Shown here one piece after another: positions 1 to 55,500 of a stretch of DNA of 64,000 nt (positions within the stretch are counted from its first letter, which is position 1; each line of letters starts with the position of its first letter). The DNA is from Polyangiaceae bacterium (GTDB taxonomy: Bacteria > Myxococcota_A > Polyangia > Polyangiales > Polyangiaceae), in contig WQYX01000016.1 of the NCBI GenBank assembly GCA_009781005.1, positions 1 to 64,000 of the forward strand, written 5' to 3'. The position numbers were made by a program, and so were the translations under genes. A model generated the notes under the pieces. The model was given only the letters and a program-made list of their open reading frames with translations, did no database searches and was not told the origin of the DNA.

Positions 1-120
1 ACCGCTTTCGATTTGACGCGATCTCATCGTTGGGGCCTGCGGTGCGGTCCTCAAAGCCTTCAAGGCTGTTCCGGTCCGCTCCTCGGCCCCGCCTCGACCT
101 CGCGTCAACTTGAAAGCGGT
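1..120. repeat. Family A palindromic element, copy A1
   Basis: Complete copy of a dispersed element. It begins ACCGCTTTCGATTTGACGCG and ends CGCGTCAACTTGAAAGCGGT, giving terminal inverted repeats of 20 bp with two mismatches. The interior (about positions 25-100) matches copies A2 and A3 in inverted orientation. The stop codon (TAG on the minus strand, 121-123) of the flavin reductase abuts the right end with no gap. The window starts exactly at the left end, so the left flank cannot be seen. No open reading frame is assigned. Confidence 0.85.
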
Positions 121-1299
121 CTAAAAGATCGACGTGCCGAGCCCCGCGGCAAGACGAAGCTGCGTGATGATGGAGAGCGTCTCGCCACGGTACCAACGTA
201 ACGCGGCGGCGCGCGCATAAGGCGATTGTGCGAGGTAACGGCGCGCGGCGGCTCCGGCGCGTCCGTAGACCCAACGTGCAAGCCACGCACTCTTCAACAT
301 GTGCCGCCCGATATGCGACGAGAAGACGTCACGCGCGTAGCCGTCGAACGAGCGCTCGCCCGTGCGCAACGCACGCGCGAGGTGACGCGCCGCGATCTTC
401 GCCATGACGATCGCCGGGGCAATCCCCTCGCCCGTCGCACGGTCGATGCCCGCCGCTTCACCAACGAGCACTGCGCCGTCGAGACCAAGGATGGACGAAC
501 GAACGAAAGGTCGCGTGCTGAACGGCTTGAGCCTCACGTGCGCGATGTCGATCCCGCGTCGTTCGAGAGCGCGCGCGAGCGATGTCTTGACCGCGCAGCT
601 ATGCGAGAGATTCGCGTGGTAGATGCCGCGACTTGCGTGCGGCACGCCTCCGACGAGGGTCGGGAAATCCCAGTAGTAGCCTTCGACGCCGTCTCCCACC
701 ACGCGTAGATCGAAGTCGGTGAGCCGTCGCTTGACGGCCACATCGCTTGCGACGTGCGGTGTTTCGAGAACGTAGAGGTGCCCTTTGCGCTCGGCTTCGC
801 GCATGCCAAGGAGCTTGCGCGAAGAACTGCCGGCGCCGTCGCAGATGGCGACAAAGCGTGCATCGACGATGCTCGATGCCGTCGTGAGCCGAAAGCCATG
901 CGGGGCGCGCGCGATGTCCGTGACGCCGTTGCCATCGCGAACGACGACACCGTCGTGCCTCGCTGCCGCGAGCAAGGACGCATCGAAATCCAGACGACGA
1001 ATGACGATGCCCATGGGAGCGAGCGTTTCACCGACGCACCCGTCAGTCACGGTCACGCGTGCGCCGGCGAGCGTCACGAAGGGAACATCGATCTCGATGC
1101 CGAGCGCACGGAGAGCCTCGATCCCGAGCTGGCTCACGGCGCCGGCGCACGGTTTGTCGCGCGGGAAACGTGCCTTGTCGAGCACGACGATGCGCCCCGG
1201 CGAGATGCCTTCGGCGCGCACGAGATGGAGCGCCGTGCTCGCGCCCGCAGGTCCGCCGCCAACGATGGCGACGTCGTAGTCGAACACCCCGCGACTCAC
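121..1299 (-). CDS. FAD-dependent oxidoreductase, geranylgeranyl-reductase family
   Basis: A 392-residue flavoprotein of the NAD(P)/FAD-dependent oxidoreductase superfamily. The N terminus has the dinucleotide-binding GxGxxG-type motif (VGGGPAGAST, about residues 13-22). It is followed by DKARFPRDKPCAGAVS, which resembles the conserved PxxKxCGG segment of geranylgeranyl reductases. A second FAD-contact region is VLVGEAAGIDRATGEG (about residues 285-300). Family members reduce isoprenoid or other polyene double bonds, or hydroxylate small aromatic substrates; the substrate here cannot be read from sequence. The start overlaps the end of the upstream DUF4911-like gene by 4 bp, so the two are probably translationally coupled. 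Its TAG stop touches repeat element A1. Confidence 0.82.
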   Translation of the reverse strand: MSRGVFDYDVAIVGGGPAGASTALHLVRAEGISPGRIVVLDKARFPRDKPCAGAVSQLGIEALRALGIEIDVPFVTLAGARVTVTDGCVGETLAPMGIVIRRLDFDASLLAAARHDGVVVRDGNGVTDIARAPHGFRLTTASSIVDARFVAICDGAGSSSRKLLGMREAERKGHLYVLETPHVASDVAVKRRLTDFDLRVVGDGVEGYYWDFPTLVGGVPHASRGIYHANLSHSCAVKTSLARALERRGIDIAHVRLKPFSTRPFVRSSILGLDGAVLVGEAAGIDRATGEGIAPAIVMAKIAARHLARALRTGERSFDGYARDVFSSHIGRHMLKSAWLARWVYGRAGAAARRYLAQSPYARAAALRWYRGETLSIITQLRLAAGLGTSIF

Positions 1300-17089: not shown

Positions 17090-17117
17090 TCCATGTAGCT
17101 ACAACACACGAGGCGAG

Positions 17118-17237
17118 ACCGCTTTCAAGTTGACGCGAGGTCGAGGCGGGGCCGAGGAGCGGACCGGAACAGCCTTGAAGGCTTTGAGGACCGCACCGCA
17201 GGCCCCAACGATGAGATCGCGGCAAATCGAAAGCGGT
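17118..17237. repeat. Family A palindromic element, copy A2
   Basis: A complete 120-bp copy, inverted relative to A1. It begins ACCGCTTTCAAGTTGACGCG and ends with AAATCGAAAGCGGT. It lies between the convergent zwf and ggt genes; the ggt TGA stop (17239-17241, minus strand) is one base beyond its right end. The flanking GAG and CTC extend the inverted repeat by about three bases. In one frame it is stop-free and would encode RTAPQAPTMRSRQIESG, nearly the peptide translated in the TonB-like gene at 52887. Confidence 0.88.
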
Positions 17238-17238
17238 C

Positions 17239-48825: not shown

Positions 48826-49036
48826 GCAAATCGAAAGCGGTCATTTAGACCGCTTTCAAGTTGACGCGAGGTCGAGGCGGGGCATGGGATGCGACCGGAC
48901 TCGAACTGTACGGAGTCCACGAAGTGGACGGAGTACAGTGAGAGCGACGGAGCCGAAGGCGAAGTGAACAGCCTTGAAGGCTTTGAGGACCGCACCGCAG
49001 GCCCCAACGAGGAGATCGCGGCAAATCGAAAGCGGT
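48826..49036. repeat. Family A composite: solo end plus full copy A3 with insert
   Basis: A solo end (GCAAATCGAAAGCGGT, 48826-48841) faces the left end of a full copy (48849-49036) across seven bases. GAAAGCGGTC and GACCGCTTTC then form a perfect 10-bp hairpin with a 5-nt loop. The full copy starts ACCGCTTTCAAGTTGACGCG and ends AAATCGAAAGCGGT. Its interior differs from A2 by replacement of a short central segment with about 85 bp containing a nested palindrome (CTGTACGGAGTCCAC and GTGGACGGAGTACAG). The glgX stop TGA (49036-49038, minus strand) overlaps the last base. Confidence 0.82.
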
Positions 49037-51186
49037 CACTTCGTCAGTCGCTCGAGCACCATCACACTCGAGGTGCGAAGCACGATCGTCGAGCCCGGTG
49101 CGAATTCGCCGCCTTCACCTTCACCAAGGGTATCCAGCATGGTGTCAATGCGTACTTTCCACCGGCTGCCCCACGCACTCTCTGGCAACACGAAGAGAAC
49201 GTCAGCGCGCGCGCCGTTGAGGAGCACGAGGAAAGAATCGTCAATCACGGCCTCACCCGCGGCATCACGCCAGTCGAGCGCATCGCCCGAAAGCAAGAAG
49301 CCGAGCGTCGCGTCCGTTGGTTTTTCCCAATCGAGTGCATTCATCTCGCGCCCAGCGGGATGAAACCAGGTGATGTCTTTGAGCTCGCTGCCGCCAACAC
49401 GCGTACCGCGCAAGAAACGGTGACGGCGAAACACCGGATGCTTTGCGCGAAACGCAACGAGATCTTGCACAAAACGCAATAGCTTCTCTTGCCGCTCCTC
49501 AAGATTCCAATCAAGCCACGAAACGGCACTGTCTTGCACGAATGCGTTGTTGTTGCCGTGCTGCGTTTTACCCATTTCGTCGCCGCTGGTCAGCATGGGC
49601 ACACCCTGCGAGAGCATGAGCGTGGCGAGAAAGTTTCGTTGCTGCCGACAGCGCAGCACCTCCACCGTTGACAGGCTGGATTCTCCCTCGACCCCGCAAT
49701 TCCACGACAGGTTGTCATCCCAACCGTCACGGTTGTCTTCGCCGTTGGCCTCGTTTCGTTTCCTCTCGTAGCTGACGAGATCACGCAGCGTAAAGCCGTC
49801 ATGGGCCGTTACGAAGTTGATACTTGCTGCAGGCCGCCGGCCGTCGTCCTCGTAGAGATCGCTCGAACCAGTGAGCCGGTAGCCCATATCGCTCACGGTG
49901 TTCGCCTGGCCAATCCAGAATCTTCGCACGGCATCTCTGTATCGGCCATTCCACTCCGTCCAAAGCACGGGGAAATTGCCAACTTGATAACCGCCTTGTC
50001 CGAGATCCCATGGCTCGGCAATGAGCTTCACATTCGAGACGATAGGGTCCTGGTGAATGATATCGAAGAACGCGCTCATCTTGTCGACGGCGCTCGTCTC
50101 GCGCGCAAGGGTGGAGGCGAGATCGAAGCGGAATCCGTCGACGTGCATCGTGGTGACCCAATACCGAAGACTGTCCATCACGAGCTTGAGCGTCTGCGGG
50201 TGGAGCATGTTCAAGCTGTTGCCGCAGCCCGAATAATCTTCGTAAGAGGACCGGTCGTTTGCGGACAGGCGGTAGTACGCCGCGTTGTCGAGGCCTCGCA
50301 AAGACACGGTGGGTCCGTCGTCGCCACCTTCGCCCGTGTGGTTGTAGACGACGTCGAGCACGACCTCGATACCACGCGCGTGAAGGGCCTTCACCAGCGT
50401 TTTGAACTCCGTGACCTGTGCGCCGGGCTTCGATGCATAACGGTGATCGGGCGCGAAGAAACCCAACGTTGCGTACCCCCAATAATTCTGCATGCCGCGC
50501 GCAGCGATCGGCCATTCGTCCATGTGCTCGTGGATCGGCAGGAGTTCCACCGTGGTGACGCCGAGGCGCACGAGATGATCGACAATGGGTTCGCTTGCGA
50601 GGCCAAGGTACGTGCCGCGAAGCTCGGGCGGCACCGCCTCGTGAAGCTTGCTGATGCTCTTGACGTGCGTTTCGTAGAGCACGGTGTCCGCCCAAGGCAC
50701 GCGAGGAAGACGATCTCCCTCCCAGTCGAAGGAGTTGTCGACGACGATCCCTTTCGGAACTCCGTGCGCGCTATCGCGAGGATCGAGCACGCGATAGTGC
50801 GGCGGAATGTTCGTCCCTGCGAGCCCTGATTTCGGCGACCCCACGTAGCCGAAGACGGGTTCGCGGTAGTCGACGACTCCCTCGATCGCACGGGCATACG
50901 GATCGATGAGAAGTTTGTTCGGATTGAAGCGCAGGCCGGCCGCCGGATCGTACAGACCGTAGGCGCGCAAGCCATAGCGCTGACCGGGCTTCACGCCGAC
51001 CGCGAAGCCGTGCCAGACGTTCAACGTGCGCTCGCGGAACGGAATGCGCGTCTCGCGCCCCTCTTCGTCGAAGAGGCACAGATCCATGCCCGTTGCGTTC
51101 TCCGAGAAAACAGCGAAGTTGACCCCTTCGGCAAAAGCGGTGGCGCCGAGCGGCGCGTGGTGGCCCGGCCTAAGTGTGAATGTCAT
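49036..51186 (-). CDS. glgX: Glycogen debranching enzyme (GlgX/isoamylase type)
   Basis: Hydrolyses alpha-1,6 branches of glycogen or limit dextrins. The 716-residue protein starts at ATG 51186, with 4-bp overlap with malQ. An N-terminal CBM48 domain (RPGHHAPLGATAFAEGVNFA) is followed by the GH13 barrel with NHTGEGGDDGPTVSLRG, HVDGFRFDLASTLAR (nucleophile Asp in DGFRFD), LIAEPWDLGQGGYQVGNFP (acid Glu) and NFVTAHDGFTLRDLVSYE. The architecture matches GlgX/TreX. The stop overlaps repeat A3. Confidence 0.95.
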   Translation of the reverse strand: MTFTLRPGHHAPLGATAFAEGVNFAVFSENATGMDLCLFDEEGRETRIPFRERTLNVWHGFAVGVKPGQRYGLRAYGLYDPAAGLRFNPNKLLIDPYARAIEGVVDYREPVFGYVGSPKSGLAGTNIPPHYRVLDPRDSAHGVPKGIVVDNSFDWEGDRLPRVPWADTVLYETHVKSISKLHEAVPPELRGTYLGLASEPIVDHLVRLGVTTVELLPIHEHMDEWPIAARGMQNYWGYATLGFFAPDHRYASKPGAQVTEFKTLVKALHARGIEVVLDVVYNHTGEGGDDGPTVSLRGLDNAAYYRLSANDRSSYEDYSGCGNSLNMLHPQTLKLVMDSLRYWVTTMHVDGFRFDLASTLARETSAVDKMSAFFDIIHQDPIVSNVKLIAEPWDLGQGGYQVGNFPVLWTEWNGRYRDAVRRFWIGQANTVSDMGYRLTGSSDLYEDDGRRPAASINFVTAHDGFTLRDLVSYERKRNEANGEDNRDGWDDNLSWNCGVEGESSLSTVEVLRCRQQRNFLATLMLSQGVPMLTSGDEMGKTQHGNNNAFVQDSAVSWLDWNLEERQEKLLRFVQDLVAFRAKHPVFRRHRFLRGTRVGGSELKDITWFHPAGREMNALDWEKPTDATLGFLLSGDALDWRDAAGEAVIDDSFLVLLNGARADVLFVLPESAWGSRWKVRIDTMLDTLGEGEGGEFAPGSTIVLRTSSVMVLERLTK

Positions 51187-52886: not shown

Positions 52887-53639
52887 ATGGTGCACACTAC
52901 GATCGTGCGGCTCGTGTTGACGAAAACGGCGATCCTCTCGTGCACGATGCACGCAGCGATCGGCGCTGCGTTCTTCATCTATCCGCACGTTCCCACGCCC
53001 GTGGATCCACCTCCTCGAATTTCTGGCGACACGTTCGAACTTCCCGCGCCCGAAATCAGCAACATCGCGGCAGCATCGGCGTCACCGGACAACACCGAAG
53101 CAGCGTCGACCGCGGCTCCCGACGACGCACACCGAGCAGCGGACCGGAATAGCCTCTTGGCTTTGAGGACCGCAGCGCAGGCCCCAACGATGGGATCGCG
53201 TCAAATCGAAAGCGGTCCAGGCACGCTCTATGGCGCGGTAGGAGATCGTTCTGCCACCAACCTTGCGACCACCTTCGCGCGCAGTTTCGCGCAGACGGCA
53301 AGCGCAGATCCAGCATGGCAACGAGCGCCGCTCGGTGCCGCGGGGCAAGCCGTCGTGACGCTCACGCTCGACGAGACTGGCCACATCGACAGCGCCGTTG
53401 TAACGGGTTCACCGAGCGCGGCGCTCGCTTCCAGCATTGATCGGACGATGGCGCTCATGAAAAGTCGCTCCTTCGTTGCCCCAACAAGGATCACGAAAGT
53501 GCATCTCATCGCCACGGTCATGAGCGGCGCCGCGGGCGACGACGGTCTCGACGGCGACCATTTCGGCCTTAGCGCGCGCGGCAACAACGCGTCCTTCGTG
53601 TTGCCGATCGGCAAGCGCATTCAACTGCAGGTCAAGTAG
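52887..53639 (+). CDS. TonB-like energy transducer protein carrying an in-frame repeat element
   Basis: A 250-residue protein from ATG 52887. It has an N-terminal signal-anchor (KTAILSCTMHAAIGAAFFIY), a proline-rich periplasmic stretch (HVPTPVDPPPRIS) and a C-terminal TonB-type domain (AAGQAVVTLTLDETGHIDSA; AALASSIDRTMALMKSRSF). TonB proteins couple the inner-membrane proton gradient to outer-membrane receptors. Residues of about 75-110 are encoded by family A element A4, giving RTAAQAPTMGSRQIESG. This insertion lies in the linker before the C-terminal domain, where it could be tolerated. No exbB or exbD gene is nearby. Confidence 0.7.
   Translation: MVHTTIVRLVLTKTAILSCTMHAAIGAAFFIYPHVPTPVDPPPRISGDTFELPAPEISNIAAASASPDNTEAASTAAPDDAHRAADRNSLLALRTAAQAPTMGSRQIESGPGTLYGAVGDRSATNLATTFARSFAQTASADPAWQRAPLGAAGQAVVTLTLDETGHIDSAVVTGSPSAALASSIDRTMALMKSRSFVAPTRITKVHLIATVMSGAAGDDGLDGDHFGLSARGNNASFVLPIGKRIQLQVK
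53109..53216. repeat. Family A element A4 inside a coding sequence
   Basis: The last 85 bp (53132-53216) match A2 closely, through CAGGCCCCAACGATGGGATC and AAATCGAAAGCGGT. The first about 25 bp are diverged from the terminal repeat (ACCGCGGCTCCCGACGACG). At 108 bp the element is a multiple of three and keeps the frame of the TonB-like gene open. Confidence 0.8.
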
Positions 53640-53654
53640 AGGGGTTCCATCCGC

Positions 53655-53799
53655 CATGACATTGGCAGTCTCGGCACGACGGGCTCCCCTGGCGGCGCGC
53701 AGGAAGGCGGGCGGCGCCGTAGGCGCCGCGCCCGCCGACGAGCACCGCCCAAGGGGAGCCGCGCGCGGCGAGCGAAGCGAGAAGCGCGGGAGGGGTCCC
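53655..53799 (-). repeat. Family C element, copy C2
   Basis: A near-complete copy inverted relative to C1. Read on the minus strand it starts GGGACCCCTCCCGCGC directly after the TAA stop (53800-53802) of the membrane protein. It includes CTCCCCTTGGG and CCAGGGGAG and a GC-rich internal hairpin (GGCGCC/GGCGCC region), and ends 15 bp from the TonB-like stop. Confidence 0.82.
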
Positions 53800-55500
53800 T
53801 TAATGACGTTTATAGATCTGCAAGCGGCCTTGCTCGAAGACGAGCGCATACGTTGACGGGATGTGCGCGCGCGCTTCCGGCGTGACGTCCCAGATGAGCA
53901 AGTGGTCGTAGCGAGGCACCGCGTCGTTCCAGAACTCGCGCCAAGCCGCGTCGTACACGCCTTCGCAGTTGTCGACCGTGACACCGCCATCGAGCATGTT
54001 GCGGCAGATCGATCCTGGCTGCGCCATGCTGGGTGCAAAGCCGTCGAGCATGAGTTGGTTGAAGCGCACCGGAGGCGGCGTGCTGTACATGACCGGGAAC
54101 GAGTGCGAGTGCGCAAAAAGCAGCGGAGCGGCCGTGAGCTTCTCGGTCACGTAGTATCCCCACGCATGCATGATGGCGCGCGTGTTGGCGCCCGGCTCCT
54201 TGTGCTTGAAGAGCAGCGGCAAAAGACGTGCGCCTTCCGGGACCGCCGAGATGCCCGCGGTGAACTCCTGGCGCTCACGCTCCAAAAGCGTGTAGTCTGC
54301 ACCAAGTCCGGCGCTGTAAACAACGGCCGAGACGCCGAGCAAGATGGAGAGCTTCCTCGGGATGGTATCCGGCACGCGCAAGAGCAGCGCGATCCACAAG
54401 TACGGGATGACGCGCGAGTTCACGTGGAACCAGTTCGTCATGATGTACGGCAAAAAGCAGTAGAGAAGCGTGAGTGCACCGAGAGCCACGGGCGAGAAGA
54501 ACGCCGGCGACTCCTTGCGGCGCCAGATGCCGATGGCCGCGAGCACCAAGCACGGCACGATGCTCGACGCCTCCTTCTTGGAGAAGCCCCAGAGCCACTC
54601 GGCCCACATGTTGTAACAGAGCTCCCACGGCGGAAGAGTCTTCTTGTGATCGATGAACCCGGTCATCGGTCCGACGGCGTCGCTCATCTGCTGATAAAGC
54701 GATGCTGTCACGAGCAACGTGACCGGCACGAGCGGCACGACCATCGCGCGGGCGTTGGCGAGTCGCTCCTTCCACGTTGGTTTGAGCGCCGCTTCGATGG
54801 CCACGAGCATGTGGACGATGAGCAGCGGAAAGACGTGCGCGTACCACGTGACGATGCCGAGCGCCGTGATGTAGAGACCGTTCTTCACGGTGGGCGCATG
54901 CCGCTGGCGATCGAGCGCCATGAGCAGCTCGAGCGACAGCGGAATTGCCGCTGCGAAGTCGAGCATGCCCATGCTGAAGAACCAGTTGTGGACCATGGGC
55001 CAGATAAACAGGCTCGCCACGAGCATCCGCCTGCGACACCCGGTGATCGCGAGCACGAAACGCGGAAGTGAAAATGCATTGCCCGCGAGCACGACGAGCG
55101 CGAAGAGGCGCGCGGCCATGTCCAGGCCGGTGATCTTCCCGACGACGAAGAGCCATGCGAAGAGAGCAGCGTTCGTCTTGAAGAAGCCGTTGAAAACGAA
55201 CTCGGGATACTGACTCGGATGCTCGATCACTGTGACCGCCGCGAGGTGATTCGGCAGATCTTGCAGCGGAGGCACCTGGACGAGAGCGAGCGGCCACGCA
55301 CACACGACGAAGAGCACCGTCCCGATCAGCCACGCGAGCCTCTGATCGCTGAGACGACTCCACGCACGACGAAGCTCCCGAGCCGCGCGGACGCCCGGCA
55401 TGACTCCCGACGCCACGACGTCCGGTGCAGCAGCACCCACCACGATGGGATCACGGGAGGTGATTAGGTCTGAGACATCGGCAGTGGAGTTCGGCATCAT
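53800..55500 (-). CDS. Polytopic membrane protein, GT-C-like
   Basis: A 566-residue protein with about ten hydrophobic helices starting at residue 55 (LAWLIGTVLFVVCAWPLALV). PPLQDLPNHLAAVTVIEH just after the first helix resembles the conserved loop of GT-C-type membrane glycosyltransferases. The C-terminal about 130 residues are soluble (AWGYYVTEKLTAAPLLF; DHLLIWDVTPEARAHIPSTY), probably extracytoplasmic. A polysaccharide-related role is likely but not proven. The first 40 residues are polar and cytoplasmic. Confidence 0.55.
   Translation of the reverse strand: MMPNSTADVSDLITSRDPIVVGAAAPDVVASGVMPGVRAARELRRAWSRLSDQRLAWLIGTVLFVVCAWPLALVQVPPLQDLPNHLAAVTVIEHPSQYPEFVFNGFFKTNAALFAWLFVVGKITGLDMAARLFALVVLAGNAFSLPRFVLAITGCRRRMLVASLFIWPMVHNWFFSMGMLDFAAAIPLSLELLMALDRQRHAPTVKNGLYITALGIVTWYAHVFPLLIVHMLVAIEAALKPTWKERLANARAMVVPLVPVTLLVTASLYQQMSDAVGPMTGFIDHKKTLPPWELCYNMWAEWLWGFSKKEASSIVPCLVLAAIGIWRRKESPAFFSPVALGALTLLYCFLPYIMTNWFHVNSRVIPYLWIALLLRVPDTIPRKLSILLGVSAVVYSAGLGADYTLLERERQEFTAGISAVPEGARLLPLLFKHKEPGANTRAIMHAWGYYVTEKLTAAPLLFAHSHSFPVMYSTPPPVRFNQLMLDGFAPSMAQPGSICRNMLDGGVTVDNCEGVYDAAWREFWNDAVPRYDHLLIWDVTPEARAHIPSTYALVFEQGRLQIYKRH

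Follow-up and report, generated by a model that had tools for sequence, protein, structure and literature searches.

The plus-strand gene at positions 52887 to 53639 of the window, the whole 64,000-nucleotide stretch analysed here, encodes a TonB-like protein with an N-terminal membrane helix, a variable linker and a C-terminal domain. The same layout was observed in its orthologues, which occur in each of the 11 congeners searched as well as in further genera of the family, the nearest (61% identity) being that of a second carrier genome, G009 (the window's own genome is referred to as G000, and L-numbers denote sequence stretches, or loci). An earlier note had placed a palindromic element in the linker before a TonB-type domain; by profile the domain matches are weak, with Pfam TonB_2 at E 0.064 and NCBIfam tonB_Cterm at E 0.0013, both under the curated cut-offs. 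The single-sequence structure prediction of the protein (mean pLDDT 59.6) was set aside. The features of the window are as follows:

1..122, minus strand: A1, full copy at the contig end (132 bits)
17117..17238, plus strand: A2, full-length intergenic copy, GACCGC...GCGGTC, 122 bp (130 bits)
48848..49037, plus strand: A3, long variant of about 190 bp with extra central sequence (two-part model match)
52887..53639, plus strand: TonB-like protein gene, open frame of 250 amino acids
53106..53131, plus strand: stretch read as ancestral linker coding sequence (STAAPDDA), earlier taken for the left arm of A4
53132..53217, plus strand: A4, left-truncated element copy of 86 bp, model positions 36-122

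The claim that a repeat is read in frame inside this coding sequence holds, since the 250-amino-acid frame is open, with A4 read in it as HRAADRNSLLALRTAAQAPTMGSRQIESG, and A4 matches a model built from the other copies (nhmmer E 1e-25 at 88 bits, and 83 bits once the model had been rebuilt). A full copy on a different contig is 98% identical to it over 86 bases (2 of 86 differ), and one 21-mer of the repeat occurs at six sites and never in 100 shuffles. The limits had to be revised: the element had been given as 53109-53216, that is 108 bp and a multiple of three, but only the 86 bp of 53132-53217 match the family. The supposed left arm, 53106-53131, shows no match to the element model, and its STAAPDDA stretch aligns in frame, also at the DNA level, with the linker LTSAPNVPSHA of the G009 orthologue. 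Lacking the left arm, A4 itself has ceased to be palindromic (fold z -1.4), in contrast to A2 (-65.1 kcal/mol, z -7.1).

The earlier note had named the presence of the segment as ancestral sequence in orthologues as a ground for refutation; among the TonB-like orthologues of the 11 congeners and the other genera, none carries it. In length, the window protein's linker does not clearly exceed those of its relatives, so A4 seems to replace about 20 linker residues. A translation start downstream of the element, also raised in that note, is unlikely, as the orthologues share the upstream helix and the frame continues into the conserved domain, with dN/dS against G009 of 0.55 before the segment and 0.19 after it (dS near 1). 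Between this gene and the next, positions 53680-53800 are GC-rich with a local inverted repeat, seen by eye only, and have no element-model match.

Structure, copy number and distribution of the element

The full element is a quasi-palindrome of mostly 121-124 bp with a hypervariable tip and the consensus GACCGCTTTCAAGTTGACGCGAGGTCGAGGCGGGGCCGAGSAGCGGACCGGAAYAGCCTnnnnGGCTTTGAGGACCGCASCGCAGGCCCCAACGATGAGATCGCGnCAAATCGAAAGCGGTC. Among 43 full copies, six base pairs have changed on both sides, such as pair 42/83, which is G-C in 33/43 copies and C-G in 10/43. The element can be oriented by an AAG/ATC mismatch that is conserved close to its ends. Three copies (L068, L162 and L171) have these ends and a length of 277 bp, representing another length class. 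Weak internal matches led to two further families that share the inner core but differ at their ends, namely family B (AACGCGTTTGATAACCGTCGCGAGCG...; 45 matches) and family C (AGAGCGTGTT...ACAGCCGTCGCGAGCG...; 97 matches), both counted in 1.66 Mb of G000, with few matches of either in the G009 loci. A family C copy interrupts an RlmB/TrmH-type methyltransferase gene (L163:16768-16919), in frame and between its domains. Rfam gave no match for the window region or for any element.

The end pattern was detected 242 + 232 = 474 times in G000 (4.77 Mb, 199 contigs) and 0 times in the control, which corresponds to roughly 240 copies; in G009 the counts were 187 + 203, i.e., about 195 copies. High copy number was found in only these two of about 460 Myxococcota genomes searched; in the overlapping sets of 108 family genomes and 379 phylum genomes, all the others yielded 0-2 stray matches each. 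The carriers have genomes of 4.8 Mb (G000) and 4.2 Mb (G009), and the element-free congeners range from 6.6 to 11.9 Mb. G009 is taken to be the metagenome-assembled genome Polyangiaceae bacterium Emb289P4bin44, on account of the high-copy repeat common to both; that genome was recovered from the humus-feeding termite Embiratermes neotenicus, gut compartment P4 (PMC7024585).

Copies inside genes and their reading frame

The genomic context was surveyed with a home-made gene finder in 1.66 Mb of G000 in stretches, 20 of which had been chosen for containing copies. By a simple coding model, 42 of 53 elements in the first 459 kb are intergenic, though 83% of this sequence is coding; this model cuts the window gene short at its start, and A4 is consequently counted as intergenic. 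Besides A4, the following in-gene copies, with coding sequence on either side, were observed, in both orientations:

L002, antisense: LigD, in-frame copy of 121 bp between the phosphoesterase and polymerase domains
L026: TsaB, in-frame copy of 121 bp
L056, antisense: ImuB-like polymerase, in-frame copy
L058: membrane protein, in-frame 235 bp variant
L062: LuxE-like enzyme, in-frame copy
L065: thioesterase, in-frame 187 bp variant
L147: ApaH-like phosphatase, in-frame copy
L055: pseudouridine synthase tail, in-frame 36-bp fragment
L106 (G009), antisense: MFS transporter, in-frame copy between the transporter halves

Most of these host identities were confirmed by Pfam and NCBIfam, the ImuB-like assignment being weak. 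The two reading frames give DRFQVDA...SRQIESG in sense and DRFRFDA...SRQLESG in antisense.

Seven insert-bearing genes (TonB-like, TsaB, LigD, ApaH-like, LuxE-like, thioesterase and ImuB-like) were compared with their orthologues, and no relative has the insert. The LuxE-like site is gapless in 11 orthologues from 11 genomes, with 42 additional residues in G000. TsaB contains 41 element-derived residues that are absent in 13 relatives including G009 (72%); it is the sole copy found in G000, its score across the insert is above the NCBIfam equivalog cut-off, and the protein is normally essential. The ApaH-like insert occupies a loop of variable length and the catalytic motifs are kept (G009 orthologue 79%); the ImuB-like and thioesterase inserts also lie in variable loops. 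In LigD the element is located exactly at the junction where G000 lacks a central part of about 215 residues that congeners (L226-L232) possess, and a chimeric assembly is unlikely here because the two flanks are parts of one gene, with order and frame preserved. In TsaB, LuxE-like and ApaH-like, the sequence on either side of the insert has a low dN/dS against G009 (0.10-0.28), values that say little on the time since insertion, as most G000-G009 divergence predates the insertions (A4 differing at 2/86 bases from another copy).

In 59 full-length copies, the length from GACCGC to GCGGTC modulo 3 was 0 in 33, 2 in 15 and 1 in 11. All five in-gene copies of this sample (ImuB-like, membrane protein, LuxE-like, thioesterase and ApaH-like) belong to the modulo-1 class, which keeps the frame (5/11 vs 0/48, Fisher p 9e-5), the LigD and TsaB copies agree with that class, and no frame-shifting insertion was seen within recognisable genes. 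This shows that frame matters for the in-gene copies; it does not demonstrate benefit, as purifying selection alone gives the same pattern, and the in-frame copies may be mere survivors of random insertion, most copies being intergenic.

Some copies directly adjoin stop codons. The right end of A3 overlaps the stop codon of a minus-strand glycogen-debranching-like gene ending at 49036, and further copies are located at L056:10807 and L070:14085; the latter two were considered as in-frame insertions containing a stop and ruled out, as the elements sit just after the stop codons.

Proposed origin and fate of the segment

The segment in the TonB-like protein is very probably a truncated copy of a high-copy mobile element whose surviving in-gene copies keep the frame and become translated. 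The element has terminal inverted repeats and a high copy number, like a miniature inverted-repeat transposable element (MITE), and would be non-autonomous and MITE-like, having spread in one small-genome Polyangiaceae lineage. In-gene copies would persist only where the frame is kept and the site is a variable loop or linker, and would then be translated as about 29-62 extra residues, which are probably tolerated rather than useful. In the window gene the copy would have lost its left arm along with about 20 linker residues, and for both A4 and the LigD junction a later deletion, or recombination between copies, following insertion is the likely reading.

The element presumably moves, or once moved, by transposition. 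The left flanks show a one-sided (T)TA preference, and target-site duplications in 53 copies tested were not in excess over shuffled pairs. No autonomous partner with the same ends was recognised among the end pairs of G000 (1.66 Mb covered) and G009 (0.35 Mb covered); end-to-end pairs of 917, 1867 and 2734 bp were considered as autonomous elements and are most simply solo ends. For a RAYT-type Y1 transposase, one IS200-like Y1_Tnp match was obtained in G000 and none in G009, and such a transposase was rejected as not matching. Away from stretch ends, right-end-only fragments outnumber left-end-only ones (25 vs 10 in G000; 10 vs 6 in G009), a truncation bias from which no retro-type mechanism is claimed, given the G009 counts.

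Other explanations were weighed against this evidence. An ancestral linker that resembles the repeat by chance or convergence would suit a linker that is variable in all orthologues and similar in total length, but it has next to no probability given the near-identity of A4 to a copy on another contig, the recurrence of its peptide at unrelated positions of six or more other proteins, and the orthologue comparison, which refutes it. The segment could also act as an RNA that splices itself out or is bypassed, being lost before or during translation and hence absent from the proteins, as splicing is known for some intragenic mobile RNAs of other kinds, and the fold covaries strongly and the core is conserved across three families; this is very improbable, since in-gene copies occur in both orientations (antisense in LigD, ImuB-like and the MFS transporter) and fall in a frame-keeping length class that splicing would not need, two observations on which the splicing reading was rejected, and Rfam holds no match.

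Decay of the interrupted genes into pseudogenes, in a shrinking genome and with open frames as leftovers, is quite improbable, because each of them keeps its frame intact on either side of the insert, no frame-shifting insertions were seen within recognisable genes, and TsaB is single-copy and normally essential; the small genome (4.8 Mb against 6.6-11.9 Mb in congeners), the recent insertions and the truncated copies would fit such decay. Recruitment of the translated segments for function, as selected new protein parts beyond tolerance, is likewise unlikely: the same two frames are used recurrently and give the same peptide in unrelated proteins, as recruitment would have it, but the inserts occupy variable loops and linkers, the majority of copies is intergenic, and purifying selection alone explains the frame restriction.

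Relation to known palindromic elements

Rickettsia palindromic elements (RPE; Ogata et al. 2000, 2002) are described as about 105-150 bp long with a long imperfect stem-loop (PMC2229807, PMC10969869). The present element shares with them terminal inverted repeats, the occurrence of several families and an imperfect palindrome folding into one long stem-loop, here seen as 121-124 bp, z -7.1 and covarying pairs. In both, insertion is in frame at tolerant sites of conserved proteins (here in seven genes and absent from relatives), with target duplication not established. The comparison with RPE made in the earlier note, as elements adding protein segments, gains its support mainly from full-length in-frame copies in at least six other conserved genes. 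Four element peptides compared with the Pfam and NCBIfam profiles gave no match at E up to 10; the element is RPE-like in mechanism and, judged by sequence, not a member of the RPE families in these profile libraries. It differs from RPE, nearly half of which are in genes (PMC10969869), in that most of its copies are intergenic, and also in its different, GC-rich phylum and its three families with one inner core. A Rickettsia conorii guanylate kinase with an RPE insert has been shown to be made and active (Abergel et al. 2006, as cited in PMC2229807).

Among other systems, the protein-coding palindromic repeats of Wolbachia (Ogata et al. 2005, cited in PMC2229807) are likewise translated within genes of a host-associated bacterium, a likeness by description. 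The enterobacterial MITEs ERIC/RU-1, RU-2 and RU-3 (Delihas 2007, PMC2759123) are also mostly intergenic, with open frames fused in frame to genes, but many of these fusions yield small or terminal segments, whereas full-length internal insertions in conserved enzymes were observed here, and ERIC has a target duplication (PMC2229807), of which none was found for this element. REP/BIME sequences with RAYT transposases are likewise hairpin repeats with a one-sided target preference and no target duplication; the full element is much longer, and a single IS200-like Y1 transposase was seen in G000 and none in G009.

Translated palindromes were once called unique to Rickettsia and then found in Wolbachia, and a recent review asks whether they exist elsewhere too (PMC10969869); a literature search largely outside subscription journals turned up no description of a comparable system in myxobacteria. 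This way of altering proteins would now appear in a distant, GC-rich phylum, within a single reduced-genome lineage of which one member or more is gut-associated. The large-genome close congeners serve as clean controls, by which the origin of such elements, the protein sites that tolerate them and any role in DNA deletion can be tested by comparison. A wider reading, somewhat more doubtful than probable, is that protein-coding palindromes evolved independently in Myxococcota as at least three families that share a structured core but differ at their ends. These would enter core genes in frame and, through inter-copy recombination, remove internal domains (LigD), leaving a translated scar during genome reduction.

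The repeats also mark the G000 assembly, in which the window (1-122) and contigs C1, C2, C5, C6 and C8 start at or inside repeat copies; the repeat family probably fragments this 199-contig draft, which breaks at copies.
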